The position numbers and the translations under genes are program-made. A stretch of DNA of 64,000 nt from Vitreoscilla filiformis (GTDB lineage: Bacteria > Pseudomonadota > Gammaproteobacteria > Burkholderiales > Burkholderiaceae_C). Below, piece by piece: positions 30,453 through 62,907 of the stretch (within the stretch, counting starts at the first letter, position 1; each line of letters begins with the position of its first letter). The stretch is taken from positions 2,170,001 through 2,234,000 of the forward strand of contig NZ_CP022423.1 of NCBI RefSeq assembly GCF_002222655.1, written 5' to 3'. The notes beneath the pieces are model-generated. The model searched no databases. It saw only the letters and a list, made by a program, of their open reading frames with translations, and had not been told where the DNA came from.

Positions 30453-32004
30453 CAAATAATCCCTTCAAAGCCAGGGAAACCCGTCAGAAACCCAGATTGC
30501 AGGCGACGAGTCAGCGAAAGAGTCTTAATCCCTTCAAAGCCAGGGAAGCCAGTCAGACTGTACGGCCTTGACGGCTGGGTTCCTCAAGGGTCTTAATCCC
30601 TTCAAAGCCAGGGAAGCCAGTCAGACGACAAAGCTGCCCGCGTCGGGACGGCTGCGGTGTCTTAATCCCTTCAAAGCCAGGGAAGCCAGTCAGACATCAT
30701 TGGGGTATATATCGGTGCTTCCTGTAAGGTCTTAATCCCTTCAAAGCCAGGGAAGCCAGTCAGACTGCTTGATGCACGCACTCAAGCACTTATTGAGTCT
30801 TAATCCCTTCAAAGCCAGGGAAGCCAGTCAGACGACAATGGAGCAGCTCACGAATGCGCTGAATAGGTCTTAATCCCTTCAAAGCCAGGGAAGCCAGTCA
30901 GACAAACAGGAAATGAGCTAAGATCATGATGAACGTCTTAATCCCTTCAAAGCCAGGGAAGCCAGTCAGACATGCACGGGTATTTGGTGATGCACGGGTA
31001 TTTGTCTTAATCCCTTCAAAGCCAGGGAAGCCAGTCAGACACCTATACTCGGATGATACAGGTGGGGGAATTGTCTTAATCCCTTCAAAGCCAGGGAAGC
31101 CAGTCAGACACGAGGACATGGTGATCGATTCGGCTGTGCTGTCTTAATCCCTTCAAAGCCAGGGAAGCCAGTCAGACAGCCGCGCATCGTAACAATTGAG
31201 TCTAGTCCGTCTTAATCCCTTCAAAGCCAGGGAAGCCAGTCAGACCGCAAGGGGGCGCCTGAGCATGTGGTGACATTTGTCTTAATCCCTTCAAAGCCAG
31301 GGAAGCCAGTCAGACCCCACCAAGGGGCTGAACACCTCGTTGGATTCGTCTTAATCCCTTCAAAGCCAGGGAAGCCAGTCAGACAGCTTCCAGCCGTTGA
31401 CGTGATGGTGGGCAAGTCTTAATCCCTTCAAAGCCAGGGAAGCCAGTCAGACGCCAAAGCGCCGCCGAACGAGTTGCCCACCAAGTCTTAATCCCTTCAA
31501 AGCCAGGGAAGCCAGTCAGACAACGCCGCTACTGCACCTCAGTATGTTACTAGTCTTAATCCCTTCAAAGCCAGGGAAGCCAGTCAGACCCCCAAGGAAG
31601 TGATGGCCAAAATGCTGGCATGTCTTAATCCCTTCAAAGCCAGGGAAGCCAGTCAGACCTGGCGACGACTGACACCACCATGACCAAGTTGTCTTAATCC
31701 CTTCAAAGCCAGGGAAGCCAGTCAGACTGATTGTCACCCACGAAGATGACGAGGAGTGATGTCTTAATCCCTTCAAAGCCAGGGAAGCCAGTCAGACTCT
31801 GGGAGGCCGCTGAGGATGAGGCGCTTCGGTCTTAATCCCTTCAAAGCCAGGGAAGCCAGTCAGACGGCGGCGCGTGGGTCGATGAATGGGTCGTCCAGGT
31901 CTTAATCCCTTCAAAGCCAGGGAAGCCAGTCAGACCAATGGCGGCTCCACTGGAGCCAAGCGGTTTTGTCTTAATCCCTTCAAAGCCAGGGAAGCCAGTC
32001 AGAC
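30453..32004 (-). CRISPR. CRISPR array A: 23 repeats of 37 bp, 22 spacers, type III
   Basis: Plus-strand repeats begin GTCTTAATCCCTTCAAAGCC and end AGGGAAGCCAGTCAGAC. There are 22 intact copies, from 30522 to 32004, plus a degenerate terminal copy at 30453-30489. Spacers are 31-33 bp. The degenerate copy on the left and the conserved leader on the right show that transcription runs on the minus strand, giving crRNA with an ATTAAGAC 5' handle. A TCCCT/AGGGA stem is the likely Cas6 site. The leader-proximal spacer (31936-31967) equals part of the cas6 gene at 54834-54865. Another spacer (30972-31003) is an internal tandem duplication. Confidence 0.98.
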
Positions 32005-32115
32005 TCTTCGTTCGAAAAAATCCTTGTGTGACAAGCACTTGCAAGGGGGCTTGACAAAAAAATTTCCGAACGACGAGCTGACTGGAAAAGCATTTCTCAT
32101 GCCAATGTCTGACTG
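32005..32115 (-). promoter_or_regulatory. Leader of array A
   Basis: About 110 bp that are nearly identical to the leader of array D (53779-53890), including CTTCGTTCGAAAAAA next to the repeat and TGCCAATGTCTGACTG at the far end. It contains the motif CAAGCACTTGCAAG at 32032-32045, 27 bp from the repeat, shared with all leaders here. The upstream CARF gene ends at 32142 on the same strand, so read-through into the array is possible. Confidence 0.88.
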
Positions 32116-32141
32116 GCGGCGGCCAGTGTACTACAACCACC

Positions 32142-36103: not shown

Positions 36104-36739
36104 TATTAAATCCCCTTCAGAAACCGGGGAGCTTGAACGTGATGAGGACTTACTCAATCATCATCAGGCGGTCTTAATCCCCTTCAGAAACCGGGGAGCT
36201 TGAACAAGTTGTTCTTAAGGGCCATGGGTCCTTGACAGTCTTAATCCCCTTCAGAAACCGGGGAGCTTGAACGGATCAGTGTACAGTGTCAAAGATGTAT
36301 ATTGGTCTTAATCCCCTTCAGAAACCGGGGAGCTTGAACCGAATACGCGCGTGGGCAATTGGGGTGGTCGGGTCTTAATCCCCTTCAGAAACCGGGGAGC
36401 TTGAACCGGGGAGGAGTTCCTGCGCCGCCTCACCGAGGGTCTTAATCCCCTTCAGAAACCGGGGAGCTTGAACGACATCAAGTCGGGGGCCGGCCGCGCC
36501 GGCAGTCTTAATCCCCTTCAGAAACCGGGGAGCTTGAACCTGCATGGGAGCTTCTCCTGGTAAGGGAAAGTCTTAATCCCCTTCAGAAACCGGGGAGCTT
36601 GAACAGACGGGTTTGAACCTTCCGGGTTGGCGATGTGTCTTAATCCCCTTCAGAAACCGGGGAGCTTGAACCACAATCCTGTCATCTCCGAAGGAAGGGC
36701 GCATGTCTTAATCCCCTTCAGAAACCGGGGAGCTTGAAC
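36104..36739 (-). CRISPR. CRISPR array B: 10 repeats of 35 bp, 9 spacers, type III
   Basis: Plus-strand repeats begin GTCTTAATCCCCTTCAGAAA and end CCGGGGAGCTTGAAC. The leftmost copy (36104-36138) is degenerate at its 5' end. Spacers are 30-33 bp. The leader lies on the right, so the array is transcribed on the minus strand and the crRNA handle is ATTAAGAC, the same as in arrays A and D. A TCCCC/GGGGA stem is the likely Cas6 site. All copies carry the AGCTTGAAC end, unlike array C. Confidence 0.98.
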
Positions 36740-36955: not shown

Positions 36956-38995
36956 ATGGGCCACATGCACACCGCCTCTTTCCTCGACCTCGCCCTCAGC
37001 GAACAAAACCTGTTGCAAGCTTGGGATCACGTCCGCACCAACGCCGGCGCACCCGGTAGCGATGGCGAAACCATCCAAAACTTCAGCCGCCACATTCTCC
37101 ACCACCTCCAACAACTCAAAACCGAACTCCTCTCCGGGCAATATCGCCCCCAACCCCTGCGATACGTCCCCATTCCCAAAAAGAACGGCGGCACCCGTAC
37201 CCTCGCCATCCCCACCGTGCGCGACAGAATCCTCCAAACCTCCGTCGCCCACGTCATGAGCCAATTTCTCGACCCCCAATTGGACGCCGCCAGCTACGCC
37301 TACCGCCCTGGCCGCAGCGTTTCTCAAGCCATCGCCTGTGTTCTCTCCTGCCGCGATGCGGGCTTGCAATGGGTTCTCGATGCCGATATTGAACAATTTT
37401 TCGATCATATCGATCACGAGATTTTAAACACTCAGCTCGAATCGTATTTTCCCAACGATCCCGTTTGCCAAATGGTGGCCGCCTGGATCGCCAACGGCTC
37501 TCCCGAACCCCATGCTGGTGTGCCCCAGGGTTCGCCCCTTTCCCCTTTGTTGGCGAATGTGTATCTCCATCCCCTGGATCGCCAGTTGCGCCAAGAACAT
37601 CAAACCCTCATCCGGTATGCCGACGATTTTGTCGTGCTCTGTGCCGATGAAAACCAAGCACGCCAAGCATGGGCCACCGTTCAACAGATATTGGCCGACT
37701 TGAAACTCCGGCTTCAACTGGAAAAAACCCACCTCACCACGTTCGACCAGGGGTTTAACTTTCTCGGTGTGCATTTTCACCGCCACACCGCCCAACCCCT
37801 CCACCCCCACGCCGCCCCTTGGGTGCTGCCGTCCGATACGCCCCCCGATGACCCCGCCAGCGGCCCGCCCGATGTGCCGCGCTGGTTGGAGTCCATCGAC
37901 CCCGCTTTGTCTTGTGACGACACCCCCGCCAGCGACGAGCCCCCCGCCACCCCGCCCGCCGCCCTGGAACCTCGGGCGCCGCTGCTGCAATCGTTGTACG
38001 TCACCGAGCCGGGGTGCTGGCTGACTCAGGAGCATGACCGGGTGGTCGTCAGCCACCAGCACACCGTGCGGGCCAGCGTGCCGTTGGGGCAGGTGGATCA
38101 GGTGGCGATTCTGAGCAACGCCATGGTGTCCACCGCGTTGCTGCGGCGTTGTGCGCAGCGGCGGGTGAGTGTCGTCATGGGCGGATGGGGAACGGAGTTG
38201 CTGACGCTGGACCGGGGCGCGTTGGCCGATCACGCGCTGTGGCAAGCGCAATGGGATTTGCAAGCCGAACCAGAACGCGGGCTGATGTTGGCGCGGTGTT
38301 TGGTGGCGGGCAAATTGCACAACAGTTGCACGATTTTGCGGCGCTTCAGCCGCCGTGAAGGGCGTGAGGCGGTGGAGCCGCTGGTGCAAAGCATGTTGCA
38401 GGACGAGCGCAAGCTTGCAGCGGCGGAACGGTTGGAGGTCATCCGGGGTTTGGAGGGGGCGGCGGCGCGGGCGTATTTTGCGGCGCTGCGGGGTTTGTTG
38501 CCACCGGGGGTTGATTTTCCGGGGCGGCAGCGGCACCCGCCGCCCGATCCGGTGAATGCGTGTTTATCGCTGGGATATGGGGTGCTGGCGCACAACCTGC
38601 ACACGCTCATTCGGTTGGAGGGGTTAAATGCCCATCTGGGGCATTTGCATGTGGCCACGCCGGGGAGTTTGGCGCTGGTGTCTGATCTGATGGAAGAATT
38701 CCGGGCGCCGGTGGTGGATGCGGTGGTTTTGACGCTGTGGCGCGAGGGGCGGTTACAGGCGTCTGATTTTGAATGCCGGCTGGGGGACGATGCGGAGGGG
38801 TGGCCGTGCCGGATGGTGTCGGCAGCGCGGAAAAGGTTGGTGGATGCGCTGGAGGAGAAACTCGAAAGTCACATGGTGCATCCGAGGCTGGAGAGGTTAT
38901 TGGATTTACGCCGGATCATGCAAGCGCAGGTTCGGCATTATCGGAGTGTGGTGATGGGGGAGGTGGGGGTGTATCACCCGTTCAAACTACGATAA
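36956..38995 (+). CDS. cas1: Reverse transcriptase-Cas1 fusion protein
   Basis: A 679-aa fusion. Residues 1 to about 290 are a group II intron-type reverse transcriptase: GAPGSDGETIQNF, WVLDADIEQFFDHIDHE (catalytic Asp), GVPQGSPLSPLLANVYLHPL and LIRYADDFVVLC (YADD near 222). An acidic Pro-rich linker leads to Cas1 from about 340, with its catalytic residues in place: E500 in GLEGAAARAYFAAL, H565 in LGHLH, D577 and E580 in SDLMEEFR. There is no N-terminal Cas6 domain as in some RT-Cas1. Such proteins can acquire spacers from RNA. Coding-strand composition changes from C-rich (RT half) to G-rich (Cas1 half). Two cas2 genes follow. Confidence 0.96.
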   Translation: MGHMHTASFLDLALSEQNLLQAWDHVRTNAGAPGSDGETIQNFSRHILHHLQQLKTELLSGQYRPQPLRYVPIPKKNGGTRTLAIPTVRDRILQTSVAHVMSQFLDPQLDAASYAYRPGRSVSQAIACVLSCRDAGLQWVLDADIEQFFDHIDHEILNTQLESYFPNDPVCQMVAAWIANGSPEPHAGVPQGSPLSPLLANVYLHPLDRQLRQEHQTLIRYADDFVVLCADENQARQAWATVQQILADLKLRLQLEKTHLTTFDQGFNFLGVHFHRHTAQPLHPHAAPWVLPSDTPPDDPASGPPDVPRWLESIDPALSCDDTPASDEPPATPPAALEPRAPLLQSLYVTEPGCWLTQEHDRVVVSHQHTVRASVPLGQVDQVAILSNAMVSTALLRRCAQRRVSVVMGGWGTELLTLDRGALADHALWQAQWDLQAEPERGLMLARCLVAGKLHNSCTILRRFSRREGREAVEPLVQSMLQDERKLAAAERLEVIRGLEGAAARAYFAALRGLLPPGVDFPGRQRHPPPDPVNACLSLGYGVLAHNLHTLIRLEGLNAHLGHLHVATPGSLALVSDLMEEFRAPVVDAVVLTLWREGRLQASDFECRLGDDAEGWPCRMVSAARKRLVDALEEKLESHMVHPRLERLLDLRRIMQAQVRHYRSVVMGEVGVYHPFKLR

Positions 38996-39005
38996 GGGGG
39001 CGATC

Positions 39006-39287
39006 ATGCGGCGATTATGGGTGGTGAGTTATGACGTTGCGGACGATGGCCGTCGGCAGCGGGTGGCGACGTGGTTATTGGGCTGGGGGGATCGGGTGTT
39101 GGAGAGTGTTTTTGAGTGTGTCTGGCGGGCGGATCAATTAGAGAAGGTGGTGGGAGACTTATCGGGGCTGATCGATCCGGCGCAAGATCGGGTGTGGTTG
39201 GTGCCGATTTGTCGGCGGTGTTTATGGGCGGCGAAGGTGAATGGATTGGGGCGGCGGGTGGGGCCGTGTGCGCACCATGTGGTGTGA
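39006..39287 (+). CDS. cas2: Cas2, first tandem copy
   Basis: A 93-aa Cas2 with the ferredoxin-like core: RLWVVSYDVADDGRRQRVA, then GDRVLESVFECV and a LIDPAQDRVWLVPICRRC beta strand. Cas2 forms the central dimer of the Cas1-Cas2 integrase. It starts 10 bp after RT-cas1 with GGGG upstream. A second cas2 of the same length follows after 12 bp. Confidence 0.93.
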   Translation: MRRLWVVSYDVADDGRRQRVATWLLGWGDRVLESVFECVWRADQLEKVVGDLSGLIDPAQDRVWLVPICRRCLWAAKVNGLGRRVGPCAHHVV

Positions 39288-39299
39288 GGGGGAGGGGAG

Positions 39300-39581
39300 A
39301 TGAAAAGGCGATGGGTGGTGAGTTATGACATTGCGAGTCCGAGCCGACGGCGGCGGGTGGTGCAATGTTTGCTGGATCATGGGGAGAGGGTGCAGGAGAG
39401 TGTGTATGAGTTGTTATTGAGGGAAGGGGAGTGGGGGGTATTGTGTGGGGTGTTGAATGGTTTGATTGATCCGGTGGAGGATCAATGGCGTGCGTGGCCG
39501 TTGTGTGAAGCGGATCACGCCGACGCGATTCAATTAGGGCTTCCCAGCCCCGAACCCCCGACCCACGCGGTGGTTGTGTAA
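39300..39581 (+). CDS. cas2: Cas2, second tandem copy, ending inside array C
   Basis: A 93-aa Cas2 paralogue: RRWVVSYDIASPSRRRRVVQ, GERVQESVYELLL and LIDPVEDQWRAWPLC. The DD of the first copy reads AS here, but the leading Asp is kept. GGAGGGG precedes the ATG. The stop codon TAA (39579-39581) is formed by the TAAT of the terminal CRISPR repeat of array C, so the last residues have been adjusted to or by the array. Two cas2 genes could give homo- or heterodimers. Confidence 0.9.
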   Translation: MKRRWVVSYDIASPSRRRRVVQCLLDHGERVQESVYELLLREGEWGVLCGVLNGLIDPVEDQWRAWPLCEADHADAIQLGLPSPEPPTHAVVV

Positions 39582-41068
39582 TCCCCTTCAGAAACCGGGG
39601 AGCGTGAACGGAAGAGGCACGTCGGTTTGATGAAATTATTGCGTCTTAATCCCCTTCAGAAACCGGGGAGCGTGAACGGTGAGGATATCCACCGCTTCAT
39701 TCCTTGATCGTCTTAATCCCCTTCAGAAACCGGGGAGTGTGAACGCCGAAATCGAAGCACTTCGTAGTCGGCGACAGTCTTAATCCCCTTCAGAAACCGG
39801 GGAGTGTGAACGTTTGAGGCGGCCGATGCGGCCACCGTGGATGTCTTAATCCCCTTCAGAAACCGGGGAGTGTGAACTCGATGCGGCCACCGTGGATCAC
39901 ACCTGGCTGTCTTAATCCCCTTCAGAAACCGGGGAGTGTGAACCACCCAATTCGTGGAGGACCTCGCCAAGCTTGTCTTAATCCCCTTCAGAAACCGGGG
40001 AGTGTGAACGAGCCAGTCGACCTGACGGGCTCCGGTCTCGGTCTTAATCCCCTTCAGAAACCGGGGAGTGTGAACTGGGACGAGGAGAAAGACCCCTCGG
40101 GGCTGAGTCTTAATCCCCTTCAGAAACCGGGGAGTGTGAACCGATGCTGCAGATGCAGCGCAGTTCGCCAAGTCTTAATCCCCTTCAGAAACCGGGGAGT
40201 GTGAACGCTTGGAGAGCCCCCGTGCCAATGAGCTATTGTCTTAATCCCCTTCAGAAACCGGGGAGTGTGAACGGAAGACCAGATCCCGGGAGAAGTCTGG
40301 GAAGGTCTTAATCCCCTTCAGAAACCGGGGAGTGTGAACGAAGGCGGACGGATTTCTGCATGCTGAGATTGGTCTTAATCCCCTTCAGAAACCGGGGAGT
40401 GTGAACTGCGAGGAACCAGTCAACCTGACAGACTCCGGGTCTTAATCCCCTTCAGAAACCGGGGAGTGTGAACGCGAGAAGCCCTCACACATGCAGAGCT
40501 CGACGGTCTTAATCCCCTTCAGAAACCGGGGAGTGTGAACCCGATGTCGAGGCATTGACTGGGGGAACGGGTCTTAATCCCCTTCAGAAACCGGGGAGTG
40601 TGAACTGGAGTGTTTCCACCAACCCCCTGCCAAAAAAGTCTTAATCCCCTTCAGAAACCGGGGAGTGTGAACGAAGGAGTTCTCCCTCCAGTTTGGCGAC
40701 ATAGTCTTAATCCCCTTCAGAAACCGGGGAGTGTGAACACTCAGGCCGCTGCGGCAGCTGAGCAGGCTGGTCTTAATCCCCTTCAGAAACCGGGGAGTGT
40801 GAACAAGAACTTGCGAAAGTCCTTCAAACTGAGAGTCTTAATCCCCTTCAGAAACCGGGGAGTGTGAACCTCTCCTACTGTCGCCACCAAGGCCTTGACG
40901 GTCTTAATCCCCTTCAGAAACCGGGGAGTGTGAACTCTTGAAGAAGGCACAGAAGCCGCTGAGGAAGTCTTAATCCCCTTCAGAAACCGGGGAGTGTGAA
41001 CCGCACTTGCCTGGATCTTCAGGCAGAAAGCGCGTCTTAATCCCCTTCAGAAACCGGGGAGTGTGAAC
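39575..41068 (-). CRISPR. CRISPR array C: 23 repeats of 35 bp, 22 spacers, type III
   Basis: The same family as array B, but with a changed end: the two trailer-end copies (39575, 39643) read GGGGAGCGTGAAC and the other 21 read GGGGAGTGTGAAC. The leftmost copy has lost its GTCT. Spacers are 30-33 bp. The leader is on the right and transcription is on the minus strand, towards cas2 and RT-cas1 in antisense. Spacers at 39812-39842 and 39878-39908 overlap by 19 nt; those at 40010-40040 and 40407-40438 are diverged versions of one target. Confidence 0.98.
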
Positions 41069-42618: not shown

Positions 42619-43622
42619 ACGCCGCCCTGCCCGAATGGCATGGGCCCACCCCGGTGGGCTTGAGCGCCCCGGCCATGCGCTGGTGGCACCTGGAACTGAG
42701 CCACCGACTGCTGGACGATTTGCACTTGCCCACCCCCGGCAGTTTGGGGGCGCTGTACCGCAGCGTGTTCGGGCTGGCGTTGCATGAGCGGGCGCCGCAC
42801 CTGTTCGAACGCTTCGCCGGCGAGCAGAGCGACGCGCCCCGCCCCTGGTGGCTGTGGCCCACCGATTTGGCCGACGATACCTGCGTGCCTGCCGGGGCGG
42901 TGTTGAACGTGCGCCTGGGGCTGCACACCAGCGCTTTACCCGAGTTGGCGGCGTGCCTGCAAGCCTTTGAAGATTTTGAGCGCCATGGCTTGGGTGCGCA
43001 GCGCAGCCGCTTGCGGTTGGAGGCCGTGCGCTGGCTCACCCCGCAAGGCCCCGTGCCCTTGCACAGCCCGGACGATGCCCAGCATCCACCCACCCCCTGG
43101 CAGGCCGATGACGTGTGGCGTTCCGCACGGGCCGAGTTGACCGCCGGGCAGGGCGGGGCGCTGTGGGTGCAGACAGTGACGCCGTTGCGCCTGAAAGTCG
43201 CCAGCCGACTGGTGACCGAACCGCCCCCGCTGAGTGTGTTGTTGCTGGGGTGTTTCATGCGGCTGGGTGTGTTGCTGACGCTGTCGCGTGAGCCGGGCGA
43301 AGCGGGCCAAGTGCCCCCCGCCTGGTTGAGCGACGCTGAAAAAGCCCCCTGGCTGGGGTGGAGCCGCTGCTTGCTGCCCGATCTGGCTTGGACACAGCGT
43401 GCGCAGGTGCATCGTTGGTCATCGCGCCAACAACGGGCCATTCGGATGGATGGCTTAGCGGGGGCTTGGGCGTATCCGAGCGAGGCCTGCGCGGCCCTGC
43501 CGTGGTTGCGCCTGGGCGAGCACCTGCAACTCGGAGGGAAGACGACGGTGGGGATGGGGGCGTTCCACATTCACATCGGCGGGCCTGCTTCATCGATTCT
43601 CACGTCACAGATTGCTGCATGA
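42615..43622 (+). CDS. cas6: Cas6 crRNA-processing endonuclease, III-B operon copy
   Basis: A 335-aa RAMP endonuclease of the Cas6 C-terminal (PF10040) type, which cuts pre-crRNA in the repeat. RWWHLELSHRLLDDLHLPTP opens the fold; the C-terminal RAMP domain has VHRWSSRQQRAIRMDGLAGA and the glycine-rich loop LGEHLQLGGKTTVGMGAF. The last ~75 residues are almost the same as in the second Cas6 (54117-55115), whereas the rest has drifted. ATGA overlaps join it to the CARF gene before and cmr1 after. Confidence 0.92.
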   Translation: MNAALPEWHGPTPVGLSAPAMRWWHLELSHRLLDDLHLPTPGSLGALYRSVFGLALHERAPHLFERFAGEQSDAPRPWWLWPTDLADDTCVPAGAVLNVRLGLHTSALPELAACLQAFEDFERHGLGAQRSRLRLEAVRWLTPQGPVPLHSPDDAQHPPTPWQADDVWRSARAELTAGQGGALWVQTVTPLRLKVASRLVTEPPPLSVLLLGCFMRLGVLLTLSREPGEAGQVPPAWLSDAEKAPWLGWSRCLLPDLAWTQRAQVHRWSSRQQRAIRMDGLAGAWAYPSEACAALPWLRLGEHLQLGGKTTVGMGAFHIHIGGPASSILTSQIAA

Positions 43623-53399: not shown

Positions 53400-53778
53400 T
53401 TCCTAATCCCTTCAAAGCCAGGGAAGTCAGTCAGACACCACCCGCACGCGCCAGGTCAATCAGCCGGGTCTTAATCCCTTCAAAGCCAGGGAAGTCAGTC
53501 AGACCAATAGAGTTTAAATAGCGGAGAGGTCTGTTGTCTTAATCCCTTCAAAGCCAGGGAAGTCAGTCAGACAGCGGTGCGCCAGCATCGCCGCGATTGC
53601 TGTGTCTTAATCCCTTCAAAGCCAGGGAAGTCAGTCAGGTCCAGCAGGGCCAAGCCATCGTCGGCGAAACGTGTCTTAATCCCTTCAAAGCCAGGGAAGT
53701 CAGTCAGACGAAGAAAGTGCTTTCAAGATTCACTCTGAACTGTCTTAATCCCTTCAAAGCCAGGGAAGTCAGTCAGAC
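53400..53778 (-). CRISPR. CRISPR array D: 6 repeats of 37 bp, 5 spacers, type III
   Basis: The same family as array A with one base changed (AGGGAAGTCAGTCAGAC). The leftmost copy begins TTCCTAAT instead of GTCTTAAT and the copy at 53604 ends GGT instead of GAC. Spacers are 31-32 bp. The leader is on the right and transcription is on the minus strand, divergent from the III-D operon. Confidence 0.97.
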
Positions 53779-54116
53779 CTTCGTTCGAAAAAACCCTTGT
53801 GTGACAAGCACTTACAACGGGGGTTGACAAAAATTTTTCCGAACGACGAGCTGACTGCGAAAGCACTTTTCATGCCAATGTCTGACTGACTGAGGAAACT
53901 TTAGCACATCTTTGCAGGCCCACAGCCTAACCCCCGTGCCGCCGCCCCAACAAAACCGCGCGCAGCATGCCATCCTTCCGCCAAACCCGTCAAAAACCGC
54001 AAGCTTGCAGAGTCCGCCAAATCCACCCAGGCTGTGACAAAGTGCGCCCCTCCTCCTGCATTTCTGCAATCTAACGCCAGAATGAGGCGGACGCCCTTCA
54101 CCCTCACCTCGTCACC
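53779..54116. promoter_or_regulatory. Leader of array D and promoter region of the III-D operon
   Basis: 338 bp without a gene. Positions 53779-53890 repeat the leader of array A; the shared motif is CAAGCACTTACAAC at 53805-53818, 26 bp from the repeat. The remainder is C/A-rich and contains the palindrome CCGCAAGCTTGCAG (53997-54010), about 107 bp before cas6. No other gene seen. Confidence 0.8.
53997..54010. promoter_or_regulatory. CCGCAAGCTTGCAG palindromic site upstream of the III-D operon
   Basis: Same 14-bp sequence and nearly the same distance to the first gene as at the III-B operon (41292-41305), in otherwise different surroundings. Likely a shared operator. Confidence 0.6.
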
Positions 54117-55115
54117 ATGACCCGGGACACCCCACCCCCTCCGCCTTGCAATCCCCCCGCCGGCTTGGCTCTGCCCGCAATGCAGTGGTTCCACCTCGAA
54201 CTCACCCATCGCCTGCTGGACGATCTCTCCCTGCCCGCTCCGGGCGGGCTGGGGGCGCTTTACCGCAGCGTGTTCGGCCTCGCACTCCACCGCCGGGCTC
54301 CCACCCTCTGCGAACGCTATGCCGGCGATCAGAGTGACAGCCTGCGCCCTTGGTGGTTGTGGCCGCCAGATCTGGGCGATGAAACCGACCTGCCCGCAGG
54401 CACCGTGCTGCGCGCCCGCTTCAGCTTGCATGCCAGCTCAGCACCGGATGTGGACGCTTGCCTCCAAGCCTTCGACGACTTCGGCCTGCTCGGATTGGGC
54501 ACCGAACGCAGCCGGGCCGTGTTGGACGAGGTGGCATGGCTCACCCCCAGCGGCCCCGAACCTGTGGGCGCCGCCGTCCCACCGCCTTGGTGCGCGCAAG
54601 ACGTGTGGCAAACCGCCCAGGCCGAGCTGACCGAGCGGCCCAATCCGCAGCAGAGCGGGGTGTGGCTGAACAGCGTGACACCGCTGCGACTCAAGTTTCG
54701 AAGCGCATTGATCACCCAGCCGCCTCCGCTCAGTGAGGTGCTGCAAGCGTGTTTCACCCGTCTGGGGGCGATGCTGCGGCTGGCACAACCCACCTCCGCC
54801 CGCCACCCGACCACTTGGTTGAGCCCAGAAGACAAAACCGCTTGGCTCCAGTGGAGCCGCCATTGGATGCCCGATCTGGCTTGGACACAGCGTGCGCAAG
54901 TGCATCGTTGGTCATCGCGCCAACAGCGGGCGATTCGCATCGATGGCCTGACGGGCGCATGGGCGTATCCGCCCGAAGCCTGCCCAGCCCTGCCGTGGTT
55001 GCGCCTGGGCGAACACCTGCAACTCGGAGGGAAAACGACGGTGGGGATGGGGGCGTTCAACGTCGCTTTGCGGCAACCCCATGGCGATGACAACGAAGAA
55101 GGAGGCCAAGCATGA
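54117..55115 (+). CDS. cas6: Cas6 crRNA-processing endonuclease, III-D operon copy
   Basis: A 332-aa paralogue of the Cas6 at 42615. It keeps WFHLELTHRLLDDLSLPAP and GALYRSVFGLALHRRAP in the first part and is nearly identical at the end (VHRWSSRQQRAIRIDGLTGA, LGEHLQLGGKTTVGMGAF). The middle is clearly diverged. The stretch 54834-54865 is the exact source or match of the newest spacer in array A. Its stop overlaps the cas10 start (ATGA). It probably matures crRNA for the III-D complex. Confidence 0.92.
   Translation: MTRDTPPPPPCNPPAGLALPAMQWFHLELTHRLLDDLSLPAPGGLGALYRSVFGLALHRRAPTLCERYAGDQSDSLRPWWLWPPDLGDETDLPAGTVLRARFSLHASSAPDVDACLQAFDDFGLLGLGTERSRAVLDEVAWLTPSGPEPVGAAVPPPWCAQDVWQTAQAELTERPNPQQSGVWLNSVTPLRLKFRSALITQPPPLSEVLQACFTRLGAMLRLAQPTSARHPTTWLSPEDKTAWLQWSRHWMPDLAWTQRAQVHRWSSRQQRAIRIDGLTGAWAYPPEACPALPWLRLGEHLQLGGKTTVGMGAFNVALRQPHGDDNEEGGQA
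54834..54865 (+). other. Protospacer in cas6 matching a spacer of array A (self-match)
   Basis: The 32 bases here (AAAACCGCTTGGCTCCAGTG, then 12 more) are the exact reverse complement of the spacer at 31936-31967. The crRNA made from array A would have the same sense as the cas6 mRNA, so it cannot pair with that mRNA. The identity runs three more bases into the repeat end (GAC). Confidence 0.95.
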
Positions 55116-56770
55116 CCCAATATGCCTTGATATTTGAGGCGGAATCGATCCAGTCTTACATTTTTGATTCGGGCCGGTTGTCCGATGCCGTGGGTGCCAG
55201 CGTGCGGCTAGATCAACTCTGCGGCGATTTGGCGCCAGCCGGTCCGGAGGATAAAAAAACTCCCGATGATTTGCTGTCCCGCGTGATTGCCACCGTTCTG
55301 GGGCGTGAAATCCAAAAGAAAAATGACCCCGATGTCGCGTTTTCCCGCCGTGGTGGCGGTGCGTTTATCGCGCTGTTTCAAAGCGCCGCGTTGCGCGATC
55401 GGGTGCAAGCGCTGTGGTCGGCCACACTGGCGGATGTCGCACCCGGGTTGCGGTTCGGACTGGTGGCCAGCGAAGGCATCCATGCGCTGGCGGCTGCCGA
55501 AGCGGGCATGCAAGCCATGAAATGGCAACGCAACCAGCCCGCTCCCAGTTTGCCGGAAACCGGGCCGCTCACCCGCTTGGCACCCCGGACGGGCCGGGCA
55601 GCGGTGCAAACCATGACCGAAAACGCGCAAAAAGAATGGGTCGATGCTCAAACGCTGGTGCATCGCCAACGCGCCCGCCGTTTCAACCACGACCGCTTGA
55701 CCGCTCGGTTCAGCACCGATTTGCAGAACTGGCCCAGTGATTTGGAGCGAGAGTTCCCTTTTAATCAAGCGGGGCACAAAGAAATTGCCGTCGTCCATGC
55801 CGATGGCAATGGATTGGGCGTGGCGTTGCAGGAACTGGCAAAGCACTGCAAGAAAACGCCGGATCATTATGTTGAAGCGTATGCGGGGTTTTCGGAAGCT
55901 GTCAGCCAAGCCACCCGAGCGGCGGCGGCCCACGCGACGAACACTGTGCTGGCACCCAAAACCCGCAAGGATGGTTTCGTGCCCGCCCGCCCTTTGGTGT
56001 TGGGCGGTGATGACCTCACCATCCTGTTGCGCCCGGATGTGGCGGTGCCCTTCACCCAAGCGTTTCTGGCAGCGTTTGAAGTGGAGACCGAAAAAGAGCT
56101 GAAAGAGGCGCGGCAAAAATTCAACTTTTTGCCGGTCAAGCTCACGGCGGCTGCGGGCATCGCCATTGTGCAGGCCAGTCATCCGTTTGACCGGGCGTTG
56201 CACTTGGCGGAGTCGCTGTGCGGCATGGTGAAGAGCGCCACCAAAAAGCGGGTGACGGCGTCCGAGAAAGAGGCGCCTTCGGGCTTGATGTTCTATCGCC
56301 AAACCGTGTCCCTGCTGGATGACTGGCAGGACGTTCAGCGCGTCGAGACCACCCCCAAGGAGGCGGAGGAGGGCGTGCGCTATTGCACCGTCCATGGGCC
56401 GTACCTGTTGCATGCGTCGAAAGGGGAGCCGACCTTGCCCGCCTTGGCGCAGTTACAGACCTTGGCCGATGTGCTGGCCCGCCCAGCCCTGGCCAACGGG
56501 CCAGTGCGTCAGCTCATCACCCAGTTGCACCAATCGCCCGCCACGGCACGCAAGAGCTGGCAGCGCATTTGGGAAATGCTGGCGCACCGCCAAGACGCAG
56601 CCACTCAAACAGCGCTGCGCCAGGCACTCCAGGCATTGGGCCTGCCTGCTGCGCCAGATGCGCTGCCCTGTGCGCACCGCTCTGAATCCCCCAGCGATCT
56701 GCACAGCACTCCCTTGAACGATGCGTTGACGCTGGCTCATCTGGCCGTGACTCAGGAGGAAGAGGCATGA
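55112..56770 (+). CDS. cas10: Cas10, III-D-like large subunit with GGDD
   Basis: A 552-aa Cas10, much shorter than the III-B copy. It starts at once with a palm-like domain (LIFEAESIQSYIFDSGRLSD), so no HD nuclease is visible. The catalytic palm has intact GGDD (residues 298-301, LVLGGDDLTILLRP). It should make cyclic oligoadenylate. It begins in an ATGA overlap with cas6 and ends in one with the Cas7 gene. Confidence 0.92.
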   Translation: MTQYALIFEAESIQSYIFDSGRLSDAVGASVRLDQLCGDLAPAGPEDKKTPDDLLSRVIATVLGREIQKKNDPDVAFSRRGGGAFIALFQSAALRDRVQALWSATLADVAPGLRFGLVASEGIHALAAAEAGMQAMKWQRNQPAPSLPETGPLTRLAPRTGRAAVQTMTENAQKEWVDAQTLVHRQRARRFNHDRLTARFSTDLQNWPSDLEREFPFNQAGHKEIAVVHADGNGLGVALQELAKHCKKTPDHYVEAYAGFSEAVSQATRAAAAHATNTVLAPKTRKDGFVPARPLVLGGDDLTILLRPDVAVPFTQAFLAAFEVETEKELKEARQKFNFLPVKLTAAAGIAIVQASHPFDRALHLAESLCGMVKSATKKRVTASEKEAPSGLMFYRQTVSLLDDWQDVQRVETTPKEAEEGVRYCTVHGPYLLHASKGEPTLPALAQLQTLADVLARPALANGPVRQLITQLHQSPATARKSWQRIWEMLAHRQDAATQTALRQALQALGLPAAPDALPCAHRSESPSDLHSTPLNDALTLAHLAVTQEEEA

Positions 56771-57390
56771 GTTCATCTCTCAACCCAAGCACCCGCCCCT
56801 TGGCGGTTGAGGTGCTGGATTTGTGGCACGCCGGCAGTGGCCGGGGCCAGGGCCGGTCGCTGGACGCCGTGGTTGTGGTGGATCCGCAAGGGTTGCCTTA
56901 TTTGCCGGGCCGCCAGCTCAAAGGCTTGTTACGGGATGCCGTGCGCTGCTTGGAGCACTGGGGCCACGTCCCTGCCGACACCACCGCCTACCTGTTTGGG
57001 GACAAGGTACTCACCGGTGTTTCCGACGATCTGCGCTTGCTGCGCAGCCGACCAGGGGTGCTGCACGTGAGCAATGCCACGCTGACGCAGGCAGAGCGTG
57101 ACTGGTTGGTGTCGCCTGCTGGCCGGCAACAGTTACCCCGCTTATTCGTGGAGGTGTTTTCTACCGCCATGGATGACCAGGGCGTGGCCAAGGATCAGAC
57201 GCTGCGCGCCATCCAGATGGTGGTGCCCATGACGTTGCATGCCACCTTGACGCTGGATGTGAGCGATCCCCAGCAGGCCGCCCCCTTGTGGGCCGTGTTG
57301 AAGCAGGGGGCGCAGTTGGTGCAGCACGTGGGTGCCCATCGATCCCGGGGGGCTGGCCGCGCCCGACTGAATTTGAAGGAGGCTGCATGA
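56767..57390 (+). CDS. Single Cas7 (Csm3-like RAMP), III-D operon
   Basis: A 207-aa Csm3-type backbone subunit. GSGRGQGRSLDAVVVVDPQG carries Asp33 at the position of the RNA-cutting Asp of Csm3, followed by LPYLPGRQLKGLLRDAVRCL. The C-terminal glycine loop is GAHRSRGAGRARLNL. It stands alone, not fused to the neighbouring Csx10. Its start and stop are both in 4-nt overlaps. Confidence 0.88.
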   Translation: MSSSLNPSTRPLAVEVLDLWHAGSGRGQGRSLDAVVVVDPQGLPYLPGRQLKGLLRDAVRCLEHWGHVPADTTAYLFGDKVLTGVSDDLRLLRSRPGVLHVSNATLTQAERDWLVSPAGRQQLPRLFVEVFSTAMDDQGVAKDQTLRAIQMVVPMTLHATLTLDVSDPQQAAPLWAVLKQGAQLVQHVGAHRSRGAGRARLNLKEAA

Positions 57391-59051
57391 AGCGCTACCA
57401 GTTAGACATCACCTTGCTGGATGACTTGGTGTTCAGCCAACGCTCAGCCACTCAGGGCAACCACGAGGCGCTGGACCGCATTCCGGGCACGGCATTGTGG
57501 GGGTGGGCGGCGGCTTGGTTGCACCGTCACCATGCTGGCGACGCGCAGGCCCTGGCCCACGAAGAGGGGCTGCGCTTCTCGGATGCTCGCCCCCTCAGTC
57601 CGCATGGTCTGCCCACGTTCGTTGTGCCGCTGAGCTGGGTTTATGACAAAGGGGACACAGAGGGGTACTTCATCAAAAACACCGAGGGCACCGCCAGCAA
57701 GCGACTGCACGCACAGAAGCTGCGCAACTTGGCCCACGCCGACGCCAAGGCGGACGATTTCAAGCAAGCCAAAGGTCTGCGTGGTGGCTATGTGAGCGAG
57801 GCGGGGGAGCACGTCACGCCCGACACCCAATACCGTTTGCGCACCGCCTTGCAGGAGGAGACGGGCACGGCGCGTGCCGGCCAACTGTTTGGTTATCAGA
57901 GTTTGCAGGCAGGGCAGCGTTTCCGAGCGACCATGCAAGTGGCTGCGGGTGTGCCAGCGGCCCCGGTTGAGGCGTTGCTCCGAGCGATGGCACAGCAAGT
58001 GCGCCTTGGGCGTTCGCGTTCGGGTGAATATGGGCGGGTGCGGGTGTCGATTCAAGAGATGCCGGCGCCGGTGGTTGCGCCGAGTGTGCGAGGGCAGCGG
58101 GTGGTGGTGTGGTTGCTGTCCGATGCATTGCTGCGCGATGCCCATGGTCGCCCGTGCCTCACGCCTGAACCCACCGTGATGGGGCTGCCCGGTGCGCGGT
58201 TCGTCCCCCAACACAGCGCTTTGCGCCATCGGCGCTACAGCGCATGGAACGCCCATCGCAACACCTACGCCACCGAGTGCCAGGTGATCCAAGCTGGCAG
58301 TGTGTTGGTGTTCGAGCGGGATCGGGCCTTCACGCCTGAAGAGTTGCGCCAGTTGCAGGGGGGTGTGGGGGTGTCTGGGGCGCAAGGTTTGGGGGAGGTC
58401 TGGGTGAATCCGCCGCTGCTGGCCGATGTCCGCCCGGTGTTCCGGCAGACCACCATGACGGCTCCGGCCACTGCCGCCACGGTGCCTGTGCGGGCACCGG
58501 ATACGCCACTGATGAAGTTCCTCCAGCGCACGCCAGAAAGCGCGGTGAAGGTGGATCAGGGGGCCTTGAAGCTGGCCCAAGACTGGCAACAGAAGATCAC
58601 CAGCCATCTCATGGCTGTGCGTCGCTACCGAGGCACCCCCGAGCACCTGCCGCTGGGGCCGTCACCGTCCCAGTGGGGCGGGCTGGCCTCGGCGCTGGAG
58701 GCTTGCCTGGAGCCAGCTCACTACAACGACAAGGTGCAGAGCAAGGTGCTGGGTATCTCCGCAAGCTCGGGGCCGACCCGTTCTGCGCAGGGCAGCACTG
58801 GTGTGCATCGCAACACTCAGGCCCTGGAGGGCTGGAATGTGAGCCACAGCAACTCGGAGCCGTTAGGGGGGCTCATGAATCAGCTGTTGCGGAAACACTT
58901 GGATCTGCACATGCAGGCTGGCGCCGCCGCAGCCGATTGGCGGCGAGCTGTGCGCCAGGCGGTTCATGCCTGCCAAGCCATCCGCCGTGCTGATCTGCAT
59001 TGGTTGGAAGCACTCGACAAGGTCTGCAAGAAAGAGAGCAGCGAATCATGA
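57387..59051 (+). CDS. csx10: Csx10 (Cas5-type RAMP of type III-D)
   Basis: A 554-aa RAMP protein. YQLDITLLDDLVFSQRSATQ with IPGTALWGWAAAWLH is the Csx10 start; LGRSRSGEYGRVRVSIQEM is the glycine loop of the first RAMP fold, and GVGVSGAQGLGEVWVNPPLL that of the second. A C-terminal helical region of about 160 residues (LMKFLQRTPESAVKVDQGAL onward) could stand in for a small subunit (Cas11). Csx10 marks the subtype as III-D. It binds the crRNA 5' handle next to Cas10. Confidence 0.86.
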   Translation: MKRYQLDITLLDDLVFSQRSATQGNHEALDRIPGTALWGWAAAWLHRHHAGDAQALAHEEGLRFSDARPLSPHGLPTFVVPLSWVYDKGDTEGYFIKNTEGTASKRLHAQKLRNLAHADAKADDFKQAKGLRGGYVSEAGEHVTPDTQYRLRTALQEETGTARAGQLFGYQSLQAGQRFRATMQVAAGVPAAPVEALLRAMAQQVRLGRSRSGEYGRVRVSIQEMPAPVVAPSVRGQRVVVWLLSDALLRDAHGRPCLTPEPTVMGLPGARFVPQHSALRHRRYSAWNAHRNTYATECQVIQAGSVLVFERDRAFTPEELRQLQGGVGVSGAQGLGEVWVNPPLLADVRPVFRQTTMTAPATAATVPVRAPDTPLMKFLQRTPESAVKVDQGALKLAQDWQQKITSHLMAVRRYRGTPEHLPLGPSPSQWGGLASALEACLEPAHYNDKVQSKVLGISASSGPTRSAQGSTGVHRNTQALEGWNVSHSNSEPLGGLMNQLLRKHLDLHMQAGAAAADWRRAVRQAVHACQAIRRADLHWLEALDKVCKKESSES

Positions 59052-60550
59052 GAACCGATCATTCTTGTGTGGATGTTTGGCGCTTGGTGCTGGAGGCCCG
59101 TTCTCCGTTGAGCATCGCCAGCGGCAAGGATGAGCTGGTGGACGATGTGGTGCTGGCCTTGACACCTGCCGGATTGCCCTACATCCCTGGCACAGCCTTG
59201 GCGGGTGTGTTGCGCCACGCGCTCCAAGCCCATGTGCAAGATGAGTTAGGCGTCAACGGGGCCAAGGAAGTGGCGGACGATGTATTCGGCTACGCCCAAG
59301 GCGATGATGGTCGCGCCTCGCGTTTCGAATGCACGCATGCCCACATCCACGACAGCCGCGACCGGGTGGTGTCCGACGTATTGGCGGAGGTGTCACCCAA
59401 CGAGCCGATTTTGGGGCCGCTGGTGCATCGTTTACCCACCAAGCGCCAGCGCGTGCGCATCAATGCCCACGGTGCCGCAGCCGATACGGGGCACTTCGAT
59501 CGCACTGTGGTGCCTGCTGGGCATCGCTTCAGTGTGGAGCTGAGGCTTTGGAGCGTGAATGCCCAAGCAGCCGAAACCGCCCGGAATTGGTTGGAAGGGC
59601 TGTTGAGTTCGCCAGCGTTGAGTGTGGGCGGTCTCACCCGCAGCGGCTTGGGGCGCCTGAAGGTGGTGCGCGGGGCGTATCGGCGGCTTGATTTGCGCAA
59701 CGCCCGCGAGTTGGGCGTTTTTCTGGATCGACCTGCCGCGCTGGATCAGATCCGGGGCTTGCATCCGTGGAAAGCCGCGACTGCGGAATCTCCTTGGGCC
59801 ACGCTGCCGCTGAACTTGCGGGCCGAAGGCGCACTGCGCGTGGGCCAAGGCAGCCAAGCGTTGAGCCGGCACGGCAGGGAGATCAAGCTGGCGGATGCCA
59901 TGCCCTATGTGGAGCCGTGTGTCGTCTGGGAATCCCCCTCGAAGGGGCAACTGACACAGCGGGTGGTGATCCCGGCCACGGCCATCAAGGGGGCAGTGGC
60001 GCATCGGTTGGCGTTCCATGACCGGCGCCACCGAGGGGAGTGGGCCACACCGGACAGCGTGCGCACCGCTTTGGCCGAGCACGCGCCCAAGCCAACCGGC
60101 GTCGCGGCTTGGCTGGGCACGATCAAGGGAGAGCAAGGCGCGTCTTACGCCGGTGGGCTGATGTTCGAGGACATCACCTTGCCCCTGCCTTCGGTTCCTT
60201 CACCGCAGGTGGGTCACCGTACCCACAACAGCATTGACCGCTTCACCGGCAGCGTGCGAGATGGGCTGCTGTTCACTGAGGAATATCTGTTTCGGGTGTC
60301 GCTGCCCACAGCGCTGCACCTGAGTCTGGCCGCTTGCCGGCGGACGGATGGTGTGGCCTGGCAGGCACTGCAAGACACCCTGGAGGATTTGGTGCAAGGG
60401 CGTTTAGCGATCGGGGCAGACAGCGCAAGCGGGCTGGGGTATCTGGAAGGCGACTACTCCCGTGAAGACTTCGAAGCGCTGCGCCAAGCAGCCCTGCAAG
60501 CGTGCGGCTCGCCCGCTGATGCCACTGCACAGGAGATGATTCATGAGTGA
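59048..60550 (+). CDS. Double Cas7 (two fused Csm3-like RAMP domains), III-D operon
   Basis: A 500-aa protein with two RAMP units. The first has SPLSIASGKDELVDDVVLAL with Asp33 aligned to the Csm3 catalytic Asp and GLPYIPGTALAGVLRHALQA, ending in GGLTRSGLGRLKVVRG. The second begins near residue 290 (MPYVEPCVVWESPSKGQL, VVIPATAIKGAVAHRLAFHD) and ends in IGADSASGLGYLEGDY; I see no clear catalytic Asp in it. It corresponds in layout to the Cas7-2x subunit of the III-Dv complex known from Synechocystis. ATGA overlap with csx10. Confidence 0.85.
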   Translation: MRTDHSCVDVWRLVLEARSPLSIASGKDELVDDVVLALTPAGLPYIPGTALAGVLRHALQAHVQDELGVNGAKEVADDVFGYAQGDDGRASRFECTHAHIHDSRDRVVSDVLAEVSPNEPILGPLVHRLPTKRQRVRINAHGAAADTGHFDRTVVPAGHRFSVELRLWSVNAQAAETARNWLEGLLSSPALSVGGLTRSGLGRLKVVRGAYRRLDLRNARELGVFLDRPAALDQIRGLHPWKAATAESPWATLPLNLRAEGALRVGQGSQALSRHGREIKLADAMPYVEPCVVWESPSKGQLTQRVVIPATAIKGAVAHRLAFHDRRHRGEWATPDSVRTALAEHAPKPTGVAAWLGTIKGEQGASYAGGLMFEDITLPLPSVPSPQVGHRTHNSIDRFTGSVRDGLLFTEEYLFRVSLPTALHLSLAACRRTDGVAWQALQDTLEDLVQGRLAIGADSASGLGYLEGDYSREDFEALRQAALQACGSPADATAQEMIHE

Positions 60551-61097
60551 AGACACAACCACACGCGCCCAACGTGTCGGCAAGCTGAAGCAATTGCAGC
60601 AAGATCTGGAGCAACTCGAACAAGCTGTGCTGCCCGAAGCGCTGGCAGGCACCCGCTGGACACGCTACGCCTTACGCGGGTTGAAGCTGACCACTCGCAG
60701 GATCAGCAGCCATGACGAGCTGCTGCAACAGCTCCGGCAGTGGGCCGGGTGCGGCTGGGTGGAGGCCACGGGGGCGATCCATGAGGTCAGCGGACAGCAA
60801 GCGCTCGCCGAGGTGCATGGGCGTGTGTTGTGTGCGGATCTGAGTGGCCCGACGGCTGCGCTGCGTGTGCGTCCCTCCGGTTCGGGCTGGAGTTTCACCG
60901 AGGTGCAAGAGCTGGCCGATCCGCTGGTTGAAGGGGTCGAGCCTGTGTTGGTGTGCAGTGTTCACCATGCCAGCGTGCGTGGCAGCCGAGAAAAACTGCA
61001 TTACCGGGTGGCACGCACGGTGCCGGCCAATGACAGCACGCTGCGCGTGCTGGACAGCTGGTTTGCTGGTTTTATGAACCCGATCCGGATCGAATGA
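60543..61097 (+). CDS. Csx19-position protein of the III-D operon
   Basis: A 184-aa protein that starts inside the end of the double-Cas7 gene (8-nt overlap). After a helical N-terminus (LKQLQQDLEQLEQAVLPEAL) it has a beta-rich body (GRVLCADLSGPTAALRVRPS, HYRVARTVPANDSTLRVLDS). I do not recognise the sequence with certainty. It has the size and operon place of Csx19 (TIGR03984 type) in III-D systems, between the double Cas7 and the TIGR03986 gene, so I assign it by position only. Confidence 0.55.
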   Translation: MSEDTTTRAQRVGKLKQLQQDLEQLEQAVLPEALAGTRWTRYALRGLKLTTRRISSHDELLQQLRQWAGCGWVEATGAIHEVSGQQALAEVHGRVLCADLSGPTAALRVRPSGSGWSFTEVQELADPLVEGVEPVLVCSVHHASVRGSREKLHYRVARTVPANDSTLRVLDSWFAGFMNPIRIE

Positions 61098-61116
61098 GGC
61101 GCAAGGGAGACACAGC

Positions 61117-62907
61117 ATGAGCATTGACAAAATCACATCGGCCTATAACTTCGTGCCGCTGCAAGCCAAGGTGGTGACGCCGGATTGGCAAGACCGAACC
61201 AGCCAAGATGTGCCGTTGCAGGACGGTTTGTGTGCCGAGATTGATTTGACGCTGACCAATCACACGCCTTTGCTGGTGGGGGGCAGTGACACAGAAGCGG
61301 GGCCGAAACGATTCCATTGCCACCCGGACGGCATTCCGGCGATTCCTGGATCGAGCTTTCGGGGAATGATCAGGAACGTTCTGGAGATTGCCTCATGTGC
61401 GTCGATGAAACTCATTGATGACCGCGCACTTTCTTTGCGAGACCTTGATTTGGACGCGTACAAGCAGGCGTTCAGAAGTAAACCAAGAGCGGGCTGGTTG
61501 AGCTTTTGCCATGATAGAAAAAGCTGGATCATCTTGGAGGTTGACTATGGGTTCATTGAGCAACGGCAAATTCAGAGACTCGGGCAAGCGCATGACTTGA
61601 TTTTTGCACAATGGGAAACGGCATCCGACGATGATAAGCGCAAGGCTGAGCTGAAATATCGTGCGGTTGGTAAGCCGTTGAAGCAGCGATTCATGCTTGA
61701 TGATGATTTAATGCGCACATACAAGCCTTGCCCGAAAGACAAGCCAGGTACTGTTGGGTATGTTGTGTTTACGGGTCAACCCGGTGACATGGATAAAAAC
61801 CCAAGCGAACACAAAAAAAATAACAAACATAGGGAGTTTGTTTTCCTTGATAGTGAAAAATCTACCAATGGCACACTGACGGTGCCCGCTGGGGTGATGC
61901 AAAAGTTTATTCAGAATCATTCAGACTCAAGCGATTGGAAGTACTTGCTGAGTCCTGATTCAGTGTTGAAAAACAAAGGAGTTCCTGTTTTCTTTTTGAC
62001 TGAAAAAAATCAGCAGAAGGCGTCCGTTTCATCGCTGGGGCTTGCGATGATGTACCGGATACCGGGGTTTTACTCCCTGGGTGAGTTGGCACTCAAGCAG
62101 CAGCGTCGGGAAAGCAAGCTCGATTTTGTGGAGACGCTATTTGGCCTCATCAAGCAGAGTGATCATGAACAAAGTCGGCGTTCCCGCGTCAGCTTTGGCG
62201 ACTTGCGCTTGACGGGAAGCAACACCAAACCATGGGAAGCCCCCAGCGCGTTCAGCCAGCCGACTGTGCTCAACGGTCCCAAGCCAAGCTTCTACCCCAA
62301 CTACATCGTCCAAAAGGAGCGTGGTGGCAAGCTGTCCGGGCCAGCGACGACTCTGATGGATTCTTCGGCGAAGCTCCGTGGCTGGAAGCGTTACCCGGTG
62401 CATGCACCGGCCAGTGTGAAGGGTGTTCCACCCCCACCAGAAAAAAGCCAAGCCAGTGTGCAAACACAACTTCAACCCCTGCGAGCGGGGCTTTCATTTG
62501 CGGGCCGCGTGCGGCTGCACAACGTTACTCGCGAGGAGCTGGGGGCCGTGCTCTGGGCGTTGACGTGGGGAGGGAATTCCGAGCTGCGCCATAGTCTTGG
62601 CATGGGAAAACCCTTTGGGCTCGGGCAAGTGAGCGTGAATATCACTCAGTTGAATGTGCGTTCTAACGATACGCCCCAGCTGGGAAATAATGAAATTCGA
62701 TCCTACGTGCAAGCATTTGAACGCTGGATGGAAAAAAATGTGCCCGCATGGAAGAGTGTTTTGCATGAGTTGCTAGCCATGGCCAACCCAGCCGCGCCGG
62801 GTGTTAGTCAGCTGCGCCCGCTAAAGCTGAATATGGCTGGGAAAAGTGAGTTCAGAGAAGCGAAGCAGAAAAAACTGGCCCTTCAACCGTACTCAGCAAT
62901 CCGTTGA
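61117..62907 (+). CDS. TIGR03986-type RAMP (Cas7 with insertion), III-D operon
   Basis: A 596-aa Cas7-like protein. The RAMP core appears at TNHTPLLVGGSDTEAGPKRF and PDGIPAIPGSSFRGMIRNVL, is interrupted by about 250 residues that are Lys/Asp-rich and lower in GC, and resumes at RVSFGDLRLTGSNTKPWEAP with the glycine loop LRHSLGMGKPFGLGQVSVNI. By alignment to Csm3 there is no Asp at the cutting position. It fits the Cas7-insertion subunit of III-Dv. The lower GC of 61.4-62.1 kb suggests the insertion has its own history. Confidence 0.82.
   Translation: MSIDKITSAYNFVPLQAKVVTPDWQDRTSQDVPLQDGLCAEIDLTLTNHTPLLVGGSDTEAGPKRFHCHPDGIPAIPGSSFRGMIRNVLEIASCASMKLIDDRALSLRDLDLDAYKQAFRSKPRAGWLSFCHDRKSWIILEVDYGFIEQRQIQRLGQAHDLIFAQWETASDDDKRKAELKYRAVGKPLKQRFMLDDDLMRTYKPCPKDKPGTVGYVVFTGQPGDMDKNPSEHKKNNKHREFVFLDSEKSTNGTLTVPAGVMQKFIQNHSDSSDWKYLLSPDSVLKNKGVPVFFLTEKNQQKASVSSLGLAMMYRIPGFYSLGELALKQQRRESKLDFVETLFGLIKQSDHEQSRRSRVSFGDLRLTGSNTKPWEAPSAFSQPTVLNGPKPSFYPNYIVQKERGGKLSGPATTLMDSSAKLRGWKRYPVHAPASVKGVPPPPEKSQASVQTQLQPLRAGLSFAGRVRLHNVTREELGAVLWALTWGGNSELRHSLGMGKPFGLGQVSVNITQLNVRSNDTPQLGNNEIRSYVQAFERWMEKNVPAWKSVLHELLAMANPAAPGVSQLRPLKLNMAGKSEFREAKQKKLALQPYSAIR

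Follow-up and report, generated by a model that had tools for sequence, protein, structure and literature searches.

The window analysed here, a stretch of 64,000 nt from Vitreoscilla filiformis (NZ_CP022423.1), contains the CRISPR arrays A, B, C and D, an RT-Cas1 fusion gene and a type III-D module with its own cas6 gene, and a further array, E, lies just outside it. These features are as follows.

30453..32004 (-), CRISPR array A, with 23 repeats of 37 nt (GTCTTAATCCCTTCAAAGCCAGGGAAGCCAGTCAGAC on the plus strand) and 22 spacers; the leftmost repeat is degenerate and the array reads right to left
32005..32135 (-), array A leader, conserved in sequence between arrays A, D (leader at 53779-53908) and E, the last of which is outside the window
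36104..36739 (-), CRISPR array B, of a 35-nt repeat family, with 9 spacers, none of them self-matching
36956..38995 (+), RT-Cas1 fusion gene (RT at about 13-277, Cas1 at about 346-679), flanked by arrays B and C
39575..41068 (-), CRISPR array C, of the 35-nt repeat family, with 22 spacers, none of them self-matching
53400..53778 (-), CRISPR array D, with 6 repeats and 5 spacers; it has an A-family repeat and leader
54117..55115 (+), cas6 of the III-D module, 332 aa, an open frame
55112..62907 (+), III-D effector genes: cas10 (GGDD), cas7-like, cas5-like and more cas7-like genes
L196:4070-6446 (window-equivalent 66,069-68,445), CRISPR array E, with 35 repeats, just outside the window

Within the III-D module, the frame at 60543-61097 had no PADLOC or Pfam match. 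A gene for a small protein with an IrmA domain (PF18673; 29988-30404) lies beside the trailer end of array A.

Spacer A1, the leader-proximal spacer of array A, is identical to a part of the III-D cas6 gene, and the relevant positions are the following.

31936..31967 (-), spacer A1, 32 nt, leader-proximal; the sense of its crRNA is that of cas6
54834..54865 (+), protospacer of A1 inside the III-D cas6, with AAGAC directly upstream
31935..31972 (-), 38-nt identity between A1 and cas6, in which the spacer is extended by 5 nt into the repeat on the handle side and by 1 nt into the repeat on the opposite side
43341..43372 (+), counterpart of the A1 protospacer in the III-B cas6 paralogue, with 10 mismatches and thus not the source

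An earlier, sequence-only reading had described A1 as the reverse complement of 54834-54865, which is correct and slightly understated, as 31935-31972 and 54829-54866 form an inverted pair of 38 nt with 100% complementarity, the sole long one between 20 and 60 kb. That reading had also let the match run 3 bases (GAC) into the repeat; the overlap at the handle side is real, but its length is 5 nt (AAGAC), with 1 nt more at the other end. The uniqueness of the match, which had been left to be confirmed, was established in the own genome (3,787,551 bases in 3 contigs), where, at up to 3 mismatches, the A1 32-mer has just two occurrences, the spacer itself and the cas6 site, and where a reversed A1 control pattern had no match. 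With an E-value of 1.4e-8, the exact 32-nt match is far above chance expectation. The III-B and III-D cas6 genes are 85% identical along 251 nt spanning the A1 site. The III-B gene was considered as a source of A1 and rejected, and III-D cas6 is taken as the source because the III-B gene differs at 10 of the 32 positions.

Arrays A to D each have a degenerate repeat at the left end and a conserved leader at the right end, which bears out the earlier placement of A1 next to the leader. The 3′ end of the minus-strand repeat, ATTAAGAC, is handle-like, as are those of the B and C repeats. Leader, degenerate far-end repeat and handle end agree in that the arrays read on the minus strand, as had been claimed together with a non-targeting orientation of A1; plus-strand transcription, which would have spoken against that claim, is not what we found. 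Because array A reads from the right, the A1 crRNA (ATTAAGAC-AAAACCGC...) has the same sense as cas6 mRNA, and it therefore does not pair with this mRNA.

A1 is not the only spacer with a match in the own genome. When the 58 spacers of the window were searched against it, all 58 were recovered in place and four (A1, A8, A10 and D2) also matched outside the arrays; the three besides A1 are listed below.

31453..31484 (-), spacer A8, exact match in an alpha/beta-hydrolase gene (G000:C1:1441380-1441411), crRNA in sense
31316..31347 (-), spacer A10, exact match in a cytochrome c gene (G000:C1:1058355-1058386), crRNA in sense
53641..53672 (-), spacer D2, match of 31/32 nt in a 200-aa frame without known product (G000:C1:1856187-1856217), crRNA in sense

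From our reading of the neighbouring proteins, the A8 target presumably lies in an aromatic-degradation-like cluster and the A10 target in a Sox-like cluster. The repeat at the D2 side (53604-53640) is altered: its end is CAGGT rather than CAGAC, and the changed bases prolong the genome match, as if the integration cut had fallen within the repeat. In array E, outside the window, spacer E11 matches csy3 (cas7f) of the type I-F locus at 27 of 31 positions, also in sense (L199:6167-6197); this csy3 gene is on the second contig (C2, 282 kb), and E11 differs from it by 1 inner mismatch and by 3 bases at the leader-distal end. Thus, all five self-matching crRNAs (A1, A8, A10, D2 and E11) are in sense orientation (one-sided p = 0.031), and without the inexact E11 the count is four of four (p = 0.0625). 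The self-match search of the own genome covered arrays A to E and the I-C array; none of the 53 spacers of the type I-C array was self-matching (40 of 43 candidates scored). DNA folding z-scores of the five sources (-1.25, -1.33, -0.57, -1.67 and +1.39) gave no distinctive hairpin preference.

The sequence-only reading had named the RT-Cas1 as the adaptation protein of array A, which does not fit the array families. A plain cas1 (330 aa) and cas2 (95 aa) are found at L196:6581-7873 (window-equivalent 68.6-69.9 kb, about 4.6-5.9 kb past the window end), where they lie directly beyond the leader of array E. The E repeat is the A repeat with 1 base changed, and the E leader aligns almost throughout with those of A and D, while the leaders of B and C, between which the RT-Cas1 gene sits, are a separate family. 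A Cas1 search of the genome gave 5 places above the family cut-off, 3 of them strong. On these sequence comparisons, the simplest assignment would connect arrays A, D and E with the plain Cas1-Cas2, and B and C with the RT-Cas1. From the array families and the cas1-cas2 pair beside E, we infer which Cas1 acquired A1, namely the plain one. The RT-Cas1 was judged unlikely as the agent once array E and the plain cas1-cas2 had been found outside the window, although it could reach array A in trans. The rates of self-matching spacers differ between the families in the same direction, at 5 of 59 distinct spacers for A/D/E vs. 0 of 31 for B/C, which is not significant (p = 0.16); the value of p = 0.041 obtained for A/D alone (4/27 vs. 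0/31) was weakened once E was added, and that of p = 0.011 for A/D/E against B/C and I-C together (5/59 vs. 0/84) depends on a pooling chosen afterwards.

The same reading had suggested that A1 was captured from the cas6 transcript. It is reported that most RNA-derived spacers of RT-Cas1 systems have at least 2 noncoded nucleotides at their junctions (PMC11014452). The junctions of A1, A8 and A10 have 0 noncoded bases and that of D2 has 1, which favors DNA as the source of these four of the five self spacers. The last 3 bases of E11 differ from csy3 at the leader-distal end, where a sense RNA would have its tail, and E11 could thus carry an RNA-type tail. Given this sequence evidence, A1 was probably taken from DNA, and the proposed origin from the transcript is not supported, given its junctions and the position of array A outside the RT-Cas1 family. 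RNA capture, in which the RT-Cas1 would have taken a piece of the cas6 mRNA and, acting in trans, integrated it into array A, therefore appears unlikely to us. It would agree with the presence of the RT active-site motif RYADD in the RT-Cas1, with the finding that all five self-matches are genic and sense, with a report that host RNA is taken in both directions by an RT-Cas1 (PMC5576922), and with the place of the differing bases in E11. Against it, in addition to the junctions, are the plain Cas1-Cas2 beside the array family to which A belongs, the lack of self-matches among the 31 spacers of the RT-Cas1-adjacent arrays B and C, and the lack of rRNA or tRNA genes among the five sources.

We consider it probable that A1, the newest spacer of array A, is a silent self spacer, i.e., host DNA that the plain Cas1-Cas2 captured by chance and that survived in sense orientation through the loss of antisense captures. 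Within the III-D array family (A, D and E), the plain Cas1-Cas2 would take host DNA now and then, cas6 included, and insert it in either direction. Where the crRNA paired with a host mRNA, type III interference would follow and the capture would be lost with the cell; sense captures, which could not pair with mRNA, would persist as harmless passengers. Random orientation at capture together with loss of antisense captures would then account for the five sense survivors, and we infer that selection removed the antisense ones, although the five self-match events are few. As far as can be judged from their frames, the type III effector genes appear open, with GGDD in both predicted Cas10 proteins. 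The orientation of the non-self spacers was judged from codon use only, because no phage or plasmid source was found for them. A codon-use model, which is 80% accurate on held-out host genes and makes a weak strand test, called 54 of 85 non-self spacers targeting (p = 0.0165), or 34 of 54 for A/D/E alone (p = 0.076), a lean opposite to that of the self spacers, while the count of open frames disagrees with the model (the crRNA strand is the more open one for 24 spacers and the complement for 13, with 17 ties; p = 0.10).

The searches for a foreign source gave the following results. Neither phage nor plasmid collections contained a match to the 58 window spacers (blastn, E limit 0.1), nor was there one for the E spacers in phages or for E11, alone of array E, in plasmids. 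The four degenerate patterns back-translated from spacers C10/C16, C18/C19, A11 and A13 had no match in viral contigs. The A1 pattern was absent from 298 other relatives at up to 3 mismatches; a better match to A1 in a phage or plasmid, which would have spoken against the sequence-only reading, was thus absent from the collections and relatives searched. E11 was absent, also at up to 3 mismatches, from 398 other family genomes. When the window spacers were searched in 299 relatives, with two candidates per genome scored, 31 of 62 known matches were recovered in the own genome, so that absence in that search proves little; within the same limit of two candidates per genome, the best matches seen in other genomes for A8 and A10 were of 90-94%. 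Because other genomes gave these weaker matches for A8 and A10 and no match for E11, at least the exact matches are likely, by sequence comparison, to derive from the own genome or from a strain nearly identical to it. We regard it as quite improbable that A1 and E11 came from incoming elements with near-identical cas genes, as products of competition between elements. The inner and end mismatches between E11 and the resident csy3 on contig C2 would suit such an origin, and E11 may come from a related foreign csy3. However, A1 is identical to the resident cas6 along 38 nt, both spacers were unmatched in the phages, plasmids and relatives named above, and a spacer in sense orientation would be useless against the mRNA of the element.

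It is still less probable, and in our judgment very improbable, that the A1 crRNA tunes cas6, via an antisense cas6 RNA or as a decoy. What speaks for such regulation is that A1 matches exactly the maturation nuclease of its own system and that E11, another of the self spacers, likewise resembles a cas gene. The A1 crRNA, however, does not pair with cas6 mRNA, its match lies within the coding region, and the handle-matching flank is expected to block Cas10 activation. A crude scan of 54.0-57.5 kb, which has little power (0.4 sites expected in shuffles), gave a promoter-like site on neither strand. In a set of 729 spacers from other loci, most of them with RT-Cas1, the one match to an own cas locus at up to 5 mismatches was an artefact of an N-run, and the effective number is somewhat lower than 729, given that the set includes loci matching the Cas1 part only (L063, L065-L067), a non-CRISPR repeat (L094) and the N-run artefact itself (L134). 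With no real own-locus match in this set, a spacer against cas6 is therefore no conserved regulator. The earlier alternative of a relic of autoregulation by crRNA is disfavored by the same result and by a guide that cannot pair with its mRNA.

The principle underlying the reading of A1 as a silent self spacer is already published (Silas 2017), and A1 is a new case of a known kind. In the RT-Cas1-containing III-B system of Marinomonas mediterranea, host spacers antisense to mRNA are reported to be purged by type III interference, which leaves a sense bias (PMC5576922); the survival of non-pairing host-gene spacers is similar to what we observed. The new spacers of that study were obtained under RT-Cas1 overexpression (PMC5576922), whereas those described here are resident in a natural genome, belong to an array family next to a plain Cas1-Cas2 and probably derive from DNA. 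The RT-less type III system of Thermus thermophilus is described as taking both strands without an orienting mechanism, with the bias arising from selection (PMC7515739), which is also similar to our reading. In contrast, the bias selected in T. thermophilus was toward phage targeting, and the small chromosome-derived fraction of its spacers is reported to lack a strong strand bias (PMC7515739). On average, 65% of type III spacers are reported to lie on the coding strand (PMC8482600). Inactive self-targeting spacers were described by Stern et al. 2010 (via PMC6990116); unlike in those, the first reason for silence here would be the orientation to mRNA, and one of the targets is the own cas6. 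In the literature searched we recognized no report of a spacer matching the own cas6 gene, which is no proof of absence. A1 is accordingly a clean natural case of a type III CRISPR system that coexists with own-genome spacers, including one derived from its cas6 gene. It should also be noted that a nearby RT-Cas1 does not prove that a self spacer is a record of RNA, and that the array family and the junction nucleotides are to be checked first.

Among related genomes, RT-Cas1 is rare, being found at E ≤ 1e-60 in 3 of 399 order genomes including the own one. At E ≤ 1e-40 the search gave matches in 36 of 399 family genomes, again including the own one, and by the query ranges listed both RT and Cas1 were matched only in the own genome, G541 and G422. 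One scan of genome contigs for RT-Cas1 loci gave no relatives, and a second covered the best 80 of 556 loci, many of them RT-only. From fetched loci of relatives 334 spacers were built, of which 132, belonging to six genomes, were searched for self-matches; 2 matches outside arrays were found, which are not clearly sense. An RT-Cas1-associated spacer of the family relative G422 matches a region of unassigned frames at 32 of 36 nt (L151:14468-14503 and L183:8125-8160), and its 4 differing bases lie toward the handle, resembling a noncoded tail. The match in G786 (28/30 nt) is in a palindrome after a gene that we take, by recognition, to be rplL. The sense rule is neither supported nor refuted by these two matches.

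The flanks of the protospacers may add to the tolerance of self spacers. The 5 nt upstream are AAGAC for A1, AAGAT for D2, TGGAT for A8, TTGGC for A10 and GGTAT for E11. The AAGAC next to the cas6 protospacer equals the handle end of the crRNA, so that even an antisense cas6 RNA would base-pair with the handle and thereby look like “self”; the earlier suggestion that an overlap at the handle side would help type III self-discrimination gains support from this 5-nt extension. Over the five sites, AAGAC is matched at 14 of 25 flank positions (p = 0.0006), whereas sites in host genes average 1.2 of 5, and AGA at -4 to -2 is matched at 10 of 15 (p = 0.0002); this test is post hoc, chosen after A1 had been seen, and no non-self protospacer was found that would separate a tolerance filter from an acquisition motif. 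Two of the five self sources are cas genes (cas6 and csy3), for which the probability would be about 0.002 on the assumption that cas loci occupy 60 kb, a figure that is post hoc and derived from a tiny count. A two-layer tolerance filter, made up of sense survivors and handle-like flanks with antisense transcripts ignored, and with CRISPR loci as hot spots of capture, is conceivable and rather doubtful. If the flank enrichment holds true in more genomes, two rules of self-tolerance would be measurable from sequence alone.

The same genome also contains a I-C locus (54 repeats; L197), a 15-repeat array with a repeat that looks I-E-like by eye (L195) and, on its second contig, the I-F locus (L199). 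After the RT-Cas1 gene, at about 39010-39560, we recognized by eye two similar tandem cas2-like frames that have a 25-nt stretch in common. Spacers E24, E25 and E26 (L196:4657-4826) are identical in succession, probably as a result of duplication of a repeat unit. In array C (39812-40438), spacer C18 overlaps C19, while C10 and C16 represent variants of a single sequence, and the same target was therefore sampled repeatedly.
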